NCBI RefSeq assembly: GCF_002077945.1
Contig: NZ_LVYD01000124.1
Span: 496,001-560,000, forward strand
Reading direction: 5' to 3'
Origin: Niastella vici
Lineage (GTDB): Bacteria; Bacteroidota; Bacteroidia; Chitinophagales; Chitinophagaceae
DNA length: 64,000 nucleotides
Part shown: positions 39,617 through 51,368 of the stretch, piece by piece
Layout: each line of letters opens with the position of its first letter
Position numbering within the stretch: the stretch's first letter is position 1
Program-made: the position numbers and the translations under genes
Notes under the pieces: model-generated
Seen by the model: only the letters and a program-made list of their open reading frames with translations
What the model was told of the DNA's origin: nothing
Databases searched by the model: none

Positions 39617-40828
39617 ATGCGACATATACTACAGCAAAAAATTTCATTGTTTAAAGACGCGGACCTGATCAGAGCGCAAGATGTATATCCTTATTTCCGC
39701 GTAATTGAATCAGGACAGGAAACTGAAGTAATACTCAATGGGAAGCGAGTGTTAATGTTTGGTTCCAACTCCTATCTCGGTCTTACAAATCATCCAAAGA
39801 TTGCAGCAGCAGCCAGTGCAGCTATTGAAAAATATGGCAGCGGTTGTGCAGGGTCAAGGTTTTTAAATGGAACGCTTGACCTGCATGTTGAACTGGAACA
39901 GAGGCTGGCCGCTTATACCGGCAAGGAAGATGCTGTTCTTTTCAGTACAGGTTTTCAGGCCAACCTCGGCGTGCTCTCTGCCCTGTCGGGCCGTGCCGAT
40001 GTGCTGTTGCTCGATGAGTACGACCATGCCTCTATTATAGATGGCAGCAGGTTATCATTTTCCCGGGTCATCAAGTATCGCCATAACGATATGCAGGACC
40101 TTGAGCATCGCCTGCAGTTGCTTCCTGCAAATGCATTCAAACTCATTGTTACGGACGGCATTTTCAGTATGGAAGGCGATATCGCCCGCCTGCCTGAGAT
40201 CACAGCGCTTGCAGAAAAGTATGGCGCTGCCGTAATGGTCGATGATGCACATGCCCTGGGTGTCATTGGTGCAAACGGCGCCGGCACTGCTTCGCACTTC
40301 AACCTCACCAGTGAAACCGACCTGATCATGGGCACTTTCAGCAAATCGCTTGCTTCACTGGGCGGCTTTGTGGCCGGCGACAGCGGAGTAATCGATTACC
40401 TGAAGCACAAAGCCAGGTCGCTGATCTTCAGCGCCAGCATGACGCCCGCTTCCACTGCCAGTGTAATAGCGGCCCTGGATATTATTGAACAGGAGCCGCA
40501 ACGCATACACAAACTGTGGGATAACACCAACTATATGATGGGGTTGTTGCAGGAACAGGGCTTCCATACCGGCGACACCGAAAGTCCTATCATTCCCGTA
40601 CGCATCGGCGACAATCATAAAACATTTTTGTTTACCAAGGCATTGCAGGACAAAGGCGTTTTTGTAAACCCCGTGGTATCGCCCGCAGTTCCTTCAGAAT
40701 CATCGCTGATAAGGCTTTCGCTGATGGCCACGCATTCTTTCAGTCAGATCGAAGAAGCGGTGGAAAAAATGAAAGAAACAGCCCTGATGCTGGGCATTGA
40801 ACTGAAACTGAAAAAAGAAAGCGCATGA
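39617..40828 (+). CDS. spt: serine palmitoyltransferase (alpha-oxoamine synthase family)
   Basis: A 403-residue PLP enzyme that condenses serine with acyl-CoA to 3-ketosphinganine. Family features are G-S-N-S-Y-L-G-L near 49-56, the F-S-T-G-F-Q-A-N substrate loop near 110, D-D-A-H near 212 and the PLP lysine in T-F-S-K-S at Lys243. The length, the first-gene position and the two downstream genes make serine palmitoyltransferase a better choice than KBL or BioF. The ATG at 39617 is preferred over a TTG 15 bp upstream. The stop shares ATGA with the next gene. It is the entry step of the sphingolipid pathway encoded across this operon. Confidence 0.9.
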
Positions 40829-41946
40829 CCGGTATAGTAACCGCCAATACAAAGAAGCAATTAAAGGCTTTCATTGATTTCCCGCATGACCTGTATGAGG
40901 GAGACAGCAATTATGTACCTGAACTTTTTATTGCCCAGCGCGATCTGCTGACCCCGGGCAAGCATCCTTTTCATGAACATTCGAAGGTGCAGTTATTCCT
41001 TTATTATAAGGACAATGTCATTCGTGGAAGGATCGCTGCCATCCTGAATAATAATCACAACCGTTTTAATAATACGACCGATGGTTTCTTTGGTTTTTTC
41101 GAATGCATCAATGATCTGCACGTAGCTGATAGTTTGTTCAGCGCAGCAGAACAATGGCTGTTGGAACAAGGCGCCACTACCATCATTGGCCCGGTGAACC
41201 CCACCACCAACGATCCCTGCGGTATGCTCATCGATGGGTTCGATAAACCACCGCTTGCCATGATGACGTATAATAAACCTTATTATACTTCTTTGATGGA
41301 AGCCATGAGCCTTAAGAAAAAAGTAGACCTGCTGGCCTGGGATATTAGCAAGGAAGAAGTTGGCGACCGGCCGTTGTTGCTGGAAGAACGATTGCTAAGC
41401 AGGCTTCGCCAGAAGAATATTACTATCAGGCCCGTAAGCAAGAAAGACCTTGAGAATGAAGCCAAAAATGTACGCGAAGTATACAATGCCGCCTGGGATA
41501 AGAACATGGGATTTGTTCCTATGACCGATAAGGAGTTCAATTACCTGGCAAAAGACCTGAAGATGGTGCTGGATGAACAGTTTTGCCTCATCGCTGAACA
41601 CAACGGCAAACAGATAGGTTTTGCCCTGGCCATTCCCGACATTAACCAGATCCTGATCAAAGTGCGGCGGGGAAGATTATTGCCCACCGGCATCTTCAAG
41701 CTGTTGTTCAATATGAAAAAGATCAACAGCATCCGGGTGCTGGCCCTGGGAGTGAATAAAGAATACAGAAAGCTGGGTATTGAAGCCTGCTTTTATGCCG
41801 CTATTATCAGGCGGGTAGGCGCACGCAAAATGCAGCGGGCAGAAGCATCCTGGATACTGGAGCACAATGAAATGATGAATAAAGGTATTGAAAGCATTAA
41901 CGGAAAGGTATACAAGCGGTACCGCATTTATGAAAAACCGTTATGA
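40825..41946 (+). CDS. GNAT-like acyltransferase, probable bacterial ceramide synthase
   Basis: A 373-residue protein with an acyltransferase (GNAT) fold recognisable in its second half ([16 protein letters not shown] near 305-320, the usual acyl-CoA region). The N-terminus carries [11 protein letters not shown] near 122. Similar proteins next to serine palmitoyltransferase genes have been shown in Caulobacter (bCerS) to acylate 3-ketosphinganine. Here the gene overlaps both neighbours by 4 bp (ATGA), giving the tight order spt - acyltransferase - reductase. The assignment as ceramide synthase rests on this context plus general family resemblance; no alignment was run. Confidence 0.78.
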
Positions 41947-42932
41947 GAGAAAAGGTATTGATAACCGGCGCCAGCGGCTTTATAGGCTTCCATTTAATTG
42001 AAGCGGCGCTGCGCAAAAGGCTCGATGTGTATGCAGCGGTGAGGCCAGGCAGTGATATCGATCACCTCGAAGATTATGATATCCGGTTTTGCGAACTGGA
42101 TTACAGCAATGAGGAACTGCTGGCGAAACAGTTGGCCGACGCCGGTATTACTTATATCGTTCATGCCGCCGGCGCTACACGGGCAGGTTCACAGCAATTG
42201 TACGACAGGGTCAATGCCGATTATGCTTTTACCCTGGCCAGCGCTGCCGTAAAAGGCCTCGGCACCCGTTTGAGAAAATTTGTATTTGTAAGCAGCCTGG
42301 CTGCTGTAGGGCCGCTGAATGACCGCAATGCGTTGATCACGGAAGATACCACACCGGCCCCGGTAACCGCTTACGGCAGAAGCAAGCTGCTGGCCGAGCA
42401 AAAATTAAAAGCGCTGCCATCGCTTCCGTTAGTGGTACTACGGCCCACGGCGGTGTATGGTCCACGTGAGCGGGATATTTTTATTATGCTGCGTTCCATT
42501 CATCGCGGTATAGAACCATATATCGGCCGGGTTCAACAACAGTTAAGCTTCGTGTATGTGAAAGACTTCGCAGCGGTGGCCATTAATTCGTTGTTCACCG
42601 GTCTGTTGCACAGGACGTTCAATATTTCTGATGGCGAGGGCTATGGCCAGTATGAGCTCGCCGGTCTTTCCAAACAAATACTGAACAAAAAAACAATACG
42701 ATTTCACTTGCCATACCCATTGGTCAAAGGGCTTGCCTTTGCCCTGGAAAAAACGAGCCCGCGCGGAAAAACGCCGGTGTTGAACAGGGAGAAGCTGGCT
42801 GAATTAACAGCGGTCAACTGGCAATGCAGTATTGAAAACGCAAAAACGCATTTGGGTTATTCACCGCAGTATTACCTGAAGCAGGGACTTTGGGAAACAT
42901 TACAATGGTACCGTTTAAACAAGTGGTTATAA
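41943..42932 (+). CDS. NAD-dependent epimerase/dehydratase, probable ceramide reductase (CerR-like)
   Basis: A 329-residue extended short-chain dehydrogenase. The dinucleotide motif I-T-G-A-S-G-F-I-G is near 6-14, H-A-A-G-A-T near 73, the catalytic pair in Y-G-R-S-K near 145, and L-R-P-T-A-V-Y-G-P-R near 169. In Caulobacter an epimerase-like CerR reduces the keto group of the acylated product to ceramide; the position directly after the acyltransferase (ATGA overlap) supports the same job. A role as a sugar epimerase cannot be excluded by sequence alone. Confidence 0.8.
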   Translation: MREKVLITGASGFIGFHLIEAALRKRLDVYAAVRPGSDIDHLEDYDIRFCELDYSNEELLAKQLADAGITYIVHAAGATRAGSQQLYDRVNADYAFTLASAAVKGLGTRLRKFVFVSSLAAVGPLNDRNALITEDTTPAPVTAYGRSKLLAEQKLKALPSLPLVVLRPTAVYGPRERDIFIMLRSIHRGIEPYIGRVQQQLSFVYVKDFAAVAINSLFTGLLHRTFNISDGEGYGQYELAGLSKQILNKKTIRFHLPYPLVKGLAFALEKTSPRGKTPVLNREKLAELTAVNWQCSIENAKTHLGYSPQYYLKQGLWETLQWYRLNKWL

Positions 42933-50738: not shown

Positions 50739-50747
50739 GTGACCGGT

Positions 50748-51368
50748 ATGAACCGTGCTTTAATTGTAAAGGAAAAACAAAAGGAACTAACCAGGTTGAG
50801 CAATGGCGATTTTGATGCGTTCCTGTATGATTGTGACGGTACCCTGGCCGATAACATGGAAGGGCATAAGGCCAGTTACCGCGCGGCAGCGCTTATTTAT
50901 GGGTTCGAACTGAATGATGCCATCATTGATGAACTGGCCGGCTGGCCCATTATACAGGTTGCCGAAGAGATCAGGAAACGCTATGGCGTTCCTTTTAAAC
51001 CGGAAGAGTATGCGCAGTTAAAGAATACGTTGTACGAAGATGCTTTTATTCAGGATACAAAACCCATCGACTTTGTAGTGGCCCATCTGAAAGCGCATGC
51101 CGGCAAGGTGCGCATTGGGGTAGTATCGGGTGGCGGCCGCGTTTCGGTTTCCAGAACACTGCAGCAACTCGGCATTACTTCGCTGGTGGAGGTATTGGTA
51201 TGCGCCGGTGAAACTTCCCGGGGCAAACCTCACCCCGATCCTTTTTTATATGCAGCCAAACAGCTACGTGTTGACCCCTCCCGGTGCCTCGTTTTTGAAG
51301 ACGGCAATCCGGGTGTACAGGCCGCTGTAGCGGCAGGTATGCAGTGGATCCGCATAGACCAGGTGTAG
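50748..51368 (+). CDS. HAD family hydrolase
   Basis: A 206-residue haloacid-dehalogenase phosphatase of the beta-phosphoglucomutase type. Motif I is D-C-D-G-T-L-A near residue 27-33, motif II V-V-S-G-G-G near 124, the Lys in R-G-K-P-H-P-D-P near 158, and motif III F-E-D-G-N-P-G near 180. A GTG start directly after the PAP2 stop (50739) would add three residues. It ends the operon before a strong terminator. It could dephosphorylate inositol phosphate or recycle a pathway by-product; the exact substrate is not evident. Confidence 0.88.

Follow-up and report, generated by a model that had tools for sequence, protein, structure and literature searches.

Background

Synthesis of inositol phosphoceramide (IPC) through the genes BT_1522-1526 has been demonstrated genetically in Bacteroides thetaiotaomicron, where knock-outs of the counterparts of the genes discussed below lose IPC and/or phosphatidylinositol (PI) as the pathway predicts, and where the Aur1-like enzyme is needed for IPC, not for PI (PMC9246714, PMC8791184). 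Ceramide phosphoinositol had been reported earlier in Sphingobacterium spiritivorum, as mentioned in PMC9246714. In Caulobacter, the permease genes lptF2 and lptG2 (CC_1156, CC_1155) precede cerS (CC_1154), and aasR, cerR, acpR and spt form a second group (CC_1165-1162; PMC11324152). According to a 2024 study, which cites earlier work on this point, clustering of the three ceramide genes is common, but in sphingolipid-producing Bacteroidota they are not close together (PMC11334938). Here we describe a 64,000-nt stretch of the Niastella vici genome (contig NZ_LVYD01000124.1, positions 496,001 to 560,000; hereafter the window), in which genes for a ceramide half and an inositol half of such a pathway stand in one row.

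Gene content and layout of the cluster

The cluster, at positions 39617-51368 of the window, consists of twelve intact genes, all on the + strand, and very probably encodes, judging by its protein sequences, all the steps that turn serine, acyl-CoA and glucose 6-phosphate into 2-hydroxylated IPC. Eleven of the genes form its core:

39617..40828, + strand: serine palmitoyltransferase (SPT); NCBIfam NF047600 (SerpalmtaseCFB), 697 bits, cut-off 640
40825..41946, + strand: tandem-GNAT N-acyltransferase of the bCerS type, for the second acyl chain; assigned by predicted fold and Roseomonas homology
41943..42932, + strand: extended short-chain dehydrogenase/reductase (SDR), candidate 3-ketosphinganine or oxo-ceramide reductase (CerR-like); Pfam Epimerase, E = 7e-32
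42956..44281, + strand: myo-inositol-3-phosphate synthase (MIPS); Pfam NAD_binding_5 and Inos-1-P_synth
44278..44730, + strand: PgpA-family phosphatase; Pfam PgpA, E = 2e-34
44822..45202, + strand: GtrA-type small membrane protein, possible PI flippase, counterpart of BT_1524; Pfam GtrA_DPMS_TM, E = 2e-19
45203..47755, + strand: protein with CarboxypepD_reg and DUF5686 domains; Pfam DUF5686, E = 9e-56
47771..48478, + strand: phosphatidylinositol-phosphate (PIP) synthase of the BT_1523 type; NCBIfam NF052561 (PIPSynBT1523), 397 bits, cut-off 350
48475..49023, + strand: DUF4833 protein with an N-terminal hydrophobic, signal-like segment; Pfam DUF4833, E = 1e-46
49172..49801, + strand: FA2H/Scs7-type hydroxylase; Pfam FA_hydroxylase, E = 4e-18
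49761..50738, + strand: Aur1-like inositol phosphoceramide synthase (PAP2_3); AUR1 and NF052609 matches

A preliminary description of this DNA had named eight of the genes, all of which were recovered intact on the + strand; GtrA, the DUF5686 protein, DUF4833 and a HAD hydrolase complete the span. Its ATGA overlaps at the SPT/GNAT and GNAT/SDR junctions were likewise present, with two more at MIPS/PgpA and PIP synthase/DUF4833 (four of 11 junctions in all), and the remaining junctions included one 41-bp overlap and two with zero gap, the widest gap being 148 bp. Neither promoter-like sites (22 versus 19.9 in shuffled sequence) nor terminator-like sites (14 versus 14.4) exceeded the shuffled controls. 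The claim of a single operon is consistent with this tight spacing and with the constant gene order among relatives given below; that the genes share one transcript is suggested by the spacing.

In the proposed scheme, SPT would act first, followed by the tandem-GNAT acyltransferase and the SDR to yield dihydroceramide, whose N-acyl chain the Scs7-type enzyme would hydroxylate. In parallel, MIPS would supply inositol phosphate, the BT_1523-type synthase would form PIP and the PgpA-type phosphatase would convert it to PI. GtrA would probably move PI across to the periplasmic side of the membrane; there the Aur1-like enzyme would transfer phosphoinositol from PI to ceramide. DUF4833, which in many relatives is linked to PIP synthase by a hydrophobic tether, and the DUF5686 protein would most likely hold these lipids or pass them toward the outer membrane. 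The earlier claim that every step has a candidate stands for the enzyme families, from which we infer the product, the substrates, the order of steps, the membrane sides and the roles of GtrA, DUF4833 and DUF5686.

Ceramide half

SPT fell within the Bacteroidota-type equivalog family NF047600, and its top Protein Data Bank (PDB) matches were the serine palmitoyltransferases 8guh and 3a2b (E = 9e-169), compared with E = 1.7e-71 for cysteate C-fatty acyltransferase (CFAT). A search of the Niastella genome itself with SPT gave four matches including the clustered gene. The clustered gene is the sole SPT found in the genome, since the other three homologues were accounted for as a glycine C-acetyltransferase (680 bits, cut-off 493), a CFAT-like enzyme (own-genome C24, L060:9235-10488; PDB 28eh, E = 2.5e-181; 291.5 bits on the SPT model) and a BioF-like enzyme (350 bits, below the cut-off of 426). 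Assignment of the clustered gene to CFAT, the sulfonolipid enzyme, was considered and rejected: it scores over the SPT cut-off, is far nearer to solved SPT structures, and the genome has a separate CFAT-like gene.

The GNAT protein matched no Pfam or NCBIfam family. Its predicted structure (pLDDT 89.6) gave 5kf1 as best Foldseek match (E = 8e-14), with further tandem GNATs among the matches, and its sequence was 31% identical over 375 amino acids to the gene in the CerS position of Roseomonas marmotae (annotated as a dATP pyrophosphohydrolase), that position being set by the Caulobacter gene order (PMC11324152). A predicted GNAT fold combined with near full-length homology to a CerS-position gene places it with the bCerS-type acyltransferases. 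In the Roseomonas locus, the CerS-position gene lies between two LptF/LptG permeases and a nucleotidyltransferase. Within a single 37-kb stretch, these are accompanied by a homologue of SPT (41% identical to that of the window), an epimerase-type SDR and genes for an acyl carrier protein and a fatty acyl-AMP ligase, a layout like that of the Caulobacter region. Translated searches (tblastn) with the GNAT protein matched 45 plasmid records, and SPT-GNAT-SDR triads were also found on Rubrobacter and Streptomyces plasmids. In Bacteroides finegoldii, SPT and a GNAT (29% identity, perhaps a paralogue) lie on separate records, neither near the other.

Two side observations concern this protein. The LptF/LptG-type permeases of Roseomonas stand directly 5' of the CerS-position gene (L144:15606-17977), an arrangement which in Caulobacter has been described as a candidate sphingolipid transport system (PMC11324152). 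Among the plasmid matches, proteins annotated as YghO from Escherichia coli (37% identity) and Pseudomonas veronii (33%) are homologous to the GNAT over nearly the full length.

The SDR is of the extended type (329 amino acids, N-terminal TGASGFIG) and was 31-34% identical to the triad SDRs of Streptomyces and Rubrobacter, compared with 22% (E = 2.9e-6) for the Roseomonas CerR-position gene. The ketosphinganine reductase BT_0972 is described as an SDR of ~31 kDa with a GxxxGxG segment (PMC9278070), which the window protein does not resemble, as judged by size and motif.

For the hydroxylase, the only PDB matches at E values up to 1 were SCS7 structures (4zr1 and 4zr0, E = 5.7e-31), with which its histidine-rich motifs align, placing it in the Scs7/FA2H type; we infer that it acts as a 2-hydroxylase of the ceramide N-acyl chain. 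Elsewhere in the same genome (own-genome C1, L058:8805-9926 and L058:10037-10642), a second GNAT (29% identity) is convergent with a second FA2H-like gene (39%); the two are candidates for a sulfonolipid acyltransferase and hydroxylase, set parallel to those of the window.

Inositol half

All five families of the BT_1522-1526 type (MIPS, PgpA, GtrA, PIP synthase and Aur1-like) co-occur in the cluster. The best PDB match of MIPS was 7nwr (E = 3e-166), which is the structure of BT_1526 (PMC9246714), and the PgpA-type protein, by analogy with the role given to BT_1525 in the same paper, may be the PIP phosphatase. The PIP synthase motif DX2DGX2AR..GX3DX3D was present in the window protein and in 80 of 80 relatives, these being the nearest to the window (the best 80 of at least 563 confirmed loci) in a scan of named genomes with a PIP synthase alignment.

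The PAP2 protein matched the phosphoinositol dihydroceramide synthase model NF052609 over profile positions 7-304 of 305 (340.8 bits, E = 7.5e-102), and its only PDB sequence matches at E values up to 1 were AUR1 structures (9vj3 and 9ivc, E = 3.5e-17), with which the PSLHS and HHY..D motifs align. Both histidine motifs were found in 101 of 103 Aur1-like relatives by a general pattern and in 72 of 103 by a stricter one; the two relatives scored as lacking the pair are identical Taibaiella copies, in which DHHYLLD is present. The preliminary description had named membership of unrelated families as the outcome that would overturn its view of the GNAT and PAP2 proteins, and neither turned out to belong to one. 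Apparent fusions of the hydroxylase with the Aur1-like protein (seven loci) and of GtrA with the DUF5686 protein (two loci) proved to be artefacts of matches starting inside the upstream gene.

Accessory proteins

In B. thetaiotaomicron, a mutant of BT1524 (GtrA) had less IPC and more PI in one study (PMC8791184) and an unchanged thin-layer chromatogram in another (PMC9246714); a role for GtrA in bringing PI to the Aur1-like enzyme fits the former result. A carboxypeptidase-regulatory-like neighbour, BT_1527, is also described in PMC9246714. The DUF5686 protein of the window is probably an outer-membrane barrel.

DUF4833 and PIP synthase formed one open reading frame in 50 of 78 loci, the fused proteins being 424-444 amino acids long. 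On recheck, the frame spanned the whole DUF4833 match in all 50; five were read through fully, and ten fusions were seen in the family survey. Linker boundaries could be set for 45 of the 50 proteins; a hydrophobic 19-residue stretch (Kyte-Doolittle value over 1.6) was present in 42 of them, and a hydrophobic N-terminal stretch (15-residue value over 1.5) in 26 of 28 free-standing DUF4833 proteins. Because of this linker or N-terminus, the domain probably lies in the periplasm. Its predicted structure is all-beta (pLDDT 85.3) and gave no Foldseek match in the PDB better than E = 0.019, an absence which is no proof of a new fold. Among the open-licence PMC papers searched, none was found to name DUF4833.

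Distribution and gene order

The 80 nearest relatives are counted as loci, not as independent genomes: two come from one Chitinophaga filiformis, and several are shared with the loci of the G-labelled genomes. Twelve were excluded for short flanks, leaving 68, in which a gene was scored as present when tblastn matched it on the + strand at E values up to 1e-5, a rule under which a distant paralogue may count (for example the GNAT of L131, 28% identity). The 80 loci belong to Niastella, Paraflavitalea, Segetibacter, Chitinophaga, Pedobacter, Mucilaginibacter, Arcticibacter, Chryseolinea, Dawidia, Pontibacter, Hymenobacter and other genera, from Chitinophagaceae, Sphingobacteriaceae and Cytophagales-type families.

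The order of the detected core genes was identical in all 68 loci, and 48 held all eleven. In the ceramide half, SPT was present in 62, the GNAT in 58, the SDR in 59 and the hydroxylase in 60; in the inositol half, the counts were 57 for MIPS, 66 for PgpA, 65 for GtrA and 68 for the Aur1-like gene. DUF5686 was found in 65 and DUF4833 in 67.

The preliminary description had called for a neighbourhood survey across the Chitinophagaceae. Among 147 genomes of that family, 25 matched the Aur1 model, 24 of them strongly, and the 21 strong loci that were mapped besides the window all carried PIP synthase, together with SPT in 13, the GNAT in 11 and the SDR in 10. The arrangement is not peculiar to this genome and is widespread in the Bacteroidota. 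When 395 genomes were sampled evenly from the Bacteroidota, the Aur1 model matched 57 (14 strongly, 43 weakly at under 42 bits) and 18 had an SPT over the cut-off. SPT lay within ~10 kb of the Aur1-like gene in eight of the 14 strong genomes and elsewhere in four, and two had none over the cut-off. The 18 SPT-bearing genomes had a neighbouring GNAT in 13 cases (two only 28-30% identical to that of the window) and a neighbouring SDR in nine. The parts of the published inositol-lipid survey drawn on here name Sphingobacterium, with few homologues, and contain no mention of Chitinophaga or Pedobacter (PMC9246714).

Variant clusters were also seen. In G330 (L150:5523-17602), SPT, GNAT, SDR and DUF5686 are followed by an NTP transferase, an unknown 289-residue protein, a CDP-alcohol transferase, a membrane protein of the LPG-synthase type, a HAD protein and PfkB, and DUF4833 closes the row. 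GtrA stands beside the triad in G148 and G495, in G148 also with a CDP-alcohol transferase. These variants suggest that the backbone genes form a module to which different headgroup cassettes can be attached.

Clusters without SPT and alternative explanations

Several results weigh against the proposed pathway. The SDR is the weakest of the enzyme assignments: the earlier label of a CerR-like reductase is borne out as far as an extended SDR related to the triad enzymes, and its likeness to CerR itself is little above superfamily level. The Aur1-like protein stays below the NF052609 cut-off of 480, marking it by that rule as a divergent relative and not as a BT_1522 equivalog; the cut-off was reached in none of the 147 same-family genomes and in two of the 395 of the phylum. 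In a midpoint-rooted tree, a long branch of 2.04 changes per column separated the two BT-type sequences from the 89 others. Four of the 18 SPT-bearing genomes keep a GNAT in the cluster with no SDR found there, and five (families f11 and f12, probably Bacteroidales in view of their BT-type clusters) have SPT with neither neighbour, so that linkage is not required. The published statement that the ceramide genes are not close together (PMC11334938) fits these five, not most of the 18. DUF4833, in turn, is not exclusive to the cluster (28 of 395 genomes, nine adjoining an Aur1-like gene). Finally, six genomes with an Aur1-like/PIP synthase cluster had no SPT over the cut-off anywhere in the genome (best 289-364 bits), so the Aur1-like gene can persist without recognisable ceramide synthesis, and its acceptor may not always be ceramide.

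These six comprise three Hymenobacter, a Filimonas metagenome-assembled genome, G035 and G389 (cluster loci L097, L130, L139, L112 and L158), no completeness value being available for Hymenobacter and Filimonas. Their best scores fall in the range of the Kbl and CFAT-like proteins of the Niastella genome, and every one of them has an enzyme whose SPT-model score (285-313 bits) is like that of the Niastella CFAT-like enzyme. GNAT matches in the six were only 26-29% identical and hydroxylase matches only 34-39% (none in one genome), that is, no orthologue and no GNAT of the sphingolipid type, as against orthologues of both at 57-61% in four of four SPT-bearing comparison genomes. The loss of GNAT and hydroxylase en bloc with SPT supports their belonging to the ceramide half. 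For the presence of SPT against that of the hydroxylase, the Fisher value was p = 0.0012, which is indicative only, as kinship is uncorrected. In the Aur1-like tree, five rows from four SPT-less genomes fell in three places, not all of them firmly supported.

One alternative, concerning a single part and not the product, is that DUF4833 takes part in PIP synthesis, in a catalytic or regulatory capacity, instead of carrying lipids. We regard this as a real, if lesser, possibility: the frequent fusion to PIP synthase speaks for it, as does the presence of DUF4833 near other CDP-alcohol transferases without Aur1, whereas the hydrophobic linker or N-terminus suggests a membrane side opposite the cytoplasmic active site, and two BT-type loci do without DUF4833. 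Eleven further DUF4833 loci were compared, and at least four of them had GtrA or a CDP-alcohol transferase close by; for the others, the flanks were searched almost solely with proteins of the window. At two loci (L152:8598-10536 and L164:10114-12966), a CDP-alcohol transferase, GtrA and DUF4833 occur together with no SPT or Aur1 match, with a PhyH dioxygenase upstream in L164; they possibly represent another phospholipid headgroup pathway employing DUF4833.

Sulfonolipids are common in this part of the Bacteroidota. The cluster might accordingly act on these or make a different phospho-sphingolipid, either with a cysteate acyltransferase as its first enzyme or with a PAP2 enzyme using another acceptor or donor; the retention of the Aur1-like gene in the six genomes beside a 285-313-bit enzyme, and the sub-threshold score of the Aur1-like protein, could be read in this way. 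We consider it improbable given the position of the clustered enzyme over the SPT cut-off and far nearer SPT than CFAT, the separate CFAT-like gene of the genome, and the adjoining MIPS and PIP synthase genes. Slightly less probable still are two independent products, ceramides and PI, with the PAP2 protein a lipid phosphatase or a non-joining transferase, a view to which the occurrence of phosphatases in the PAP2 family and of genomes holding the inositol half without the ceramide half lend something, and against which stand AUR1 as best and only PDB match, the aligned motifs, and the need for the Bacteroides counterpart in IPC but not PI formation.

With synthesis of hydroxylated IPC as the preferred explanation, a wider reading that takes three proposals jointly is speculative and on balance unlikely to hold in full. 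By it, Bacteroidota other than Bacteroidales would keep one ancestral unit for building and exporting sphingolipids, made up of backbone genes, an exchangeable headgroup cassette and two non-enzymatic proteins; DUF4833, together with the outer-membrane protein DUF5686, would supply the missing means of carrying IPC to the outer membrane; and the Aur1-like enzyme would have switched to another acceptor where the ceramide half was lost (Hymenobacter, the Filimonas genome and others).

Significance

IPC chemistry is already known and is not new here. The preliminary description rightly found the two halves merged, but overstated the novelty of a joining enzyme, as the Bacteroides inositol cluster already has an Aur1-like one. 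As far as searches of open-licence PMC papers show, what is new is the constant order of the merged cluster in different families of Bacteroidota, the fusion of PIP synthase to DUF4833, the conserved Scs7-type hydroxylase and the variants without SPT; no description of a merged ceramide-inositol cluster was found in these searches. A pathway whose halves are scattered in gut Bacteroides thus appears as one ordered cluster that recurs in, for example, Chitinophaga and Pedobacter and ties ceramide synthesis and hydroxylation to inositol headgroups.

To our knowledge, no sphingolipid-transport candidate has been put forward for the Bacteroidota, and the unstudied DUF4833 and DUF5686 proteins, together with GtrA, are candidates for sphingolipid handling there. 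In Caulobacter, Lpt-like proteins and a possible flippase have been suggested as candidates, as yet untested, and transport from the inner to the outer membrane is described as not known (PMC11324152; similarly PMC11087976). Loss of SPT, GNAT, SDR and hydroxylase as a block with the Aur1-like gene kept makes acceptor specificity directly testable, and the whole row would be a convenient gene set for IPC production in a laboratory host.

Neighbouring genes

Two further genes adjoin the core:

38459..39358, + strand: AraC-type regulator, possible regulator of the operon; Pfam HTH_18
50739..51368, + strand: HAD hydrolase, lineage-specific and outside the core; Pfam HAD_2, E = 7e-26

An AraC-type gene occupied the same position and strand in L064, L065, L066, L143, L036, L040, L041 and L046 (L066 being the L036 contig). 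A HAD gene 3' of the Aur1-like gene was seen among the mapped loci only in L040, L064, L065, L143 and L111 (Pontibacter, 61% identity), and weakly in L102. Close kinship of the window HAD with that of the alternative cassette in L150 was rejected (21% identity over 53 amino acids). Downstream, at 51483-55968, lie an arabinofuranosidase-like fragment, an alpha-L-fucosidase and an alpha-N-acetylglucosaminidase, with no evident tie to the lipid cluster. Upstream, at 36011-38094, a Fic/DOC-family protein is followed 23 bp on by a DUF434/DUF5616 protein, possibly as a functional pair.

Comparison with known systems

The cluster shares its five inositol-lipid families with BT_1522-1526, and two mapped BT-type loci (L162 and L163) have the same order of MIPS, PgpA, GtrA, PIP synthase and Aur1-like genes, with no match there to SPT, the hydroxylase or DUF4833. 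B. thetaiotaomicron differs in having its SPT (BT_0870) and its reported 3-ketosphinganine reductase (BT_0972) encoded away from the inositol operon. A putative alternative inositol cluster of B. vulgatus and Prevotella comprises an NTP transferase, a CDP-alcohol transferase and a HAD protein (PMC9246714); the logic of an inositol headgroup is shared, whereas the window uses the PIP synthase/PgpA/Aur1 route, and G330 couples a B. vulgatus-like cassette to an SPT-GNAT-SDR-DUF5686 row resembling that of the window.

With the Caulobacter-type region (aasR, cerR, acpR, spt and cerS; PMC11324152), the cluster has in common SPT, a GNAT-type acyltransferase and an extended SDR, but it contains no gene for an acyl carrier protein or acyl-ACP synthetase. 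The Roseomonas locus differs in having no annotated Aur1-like gene and in the low identity of its SDR noted above. The fungal IPC pathway uses Aur1 and Scs7; among solved structures, AUR1 comes closest to the PAP2 protein of the window and SCS7 to its hydroxylase. In contrast to fungi, however, the SPT, acyltransferase and reductase of the window are bacterial in type, and PI would be made through a PIP intermediate, as known from the Bacteroides work.

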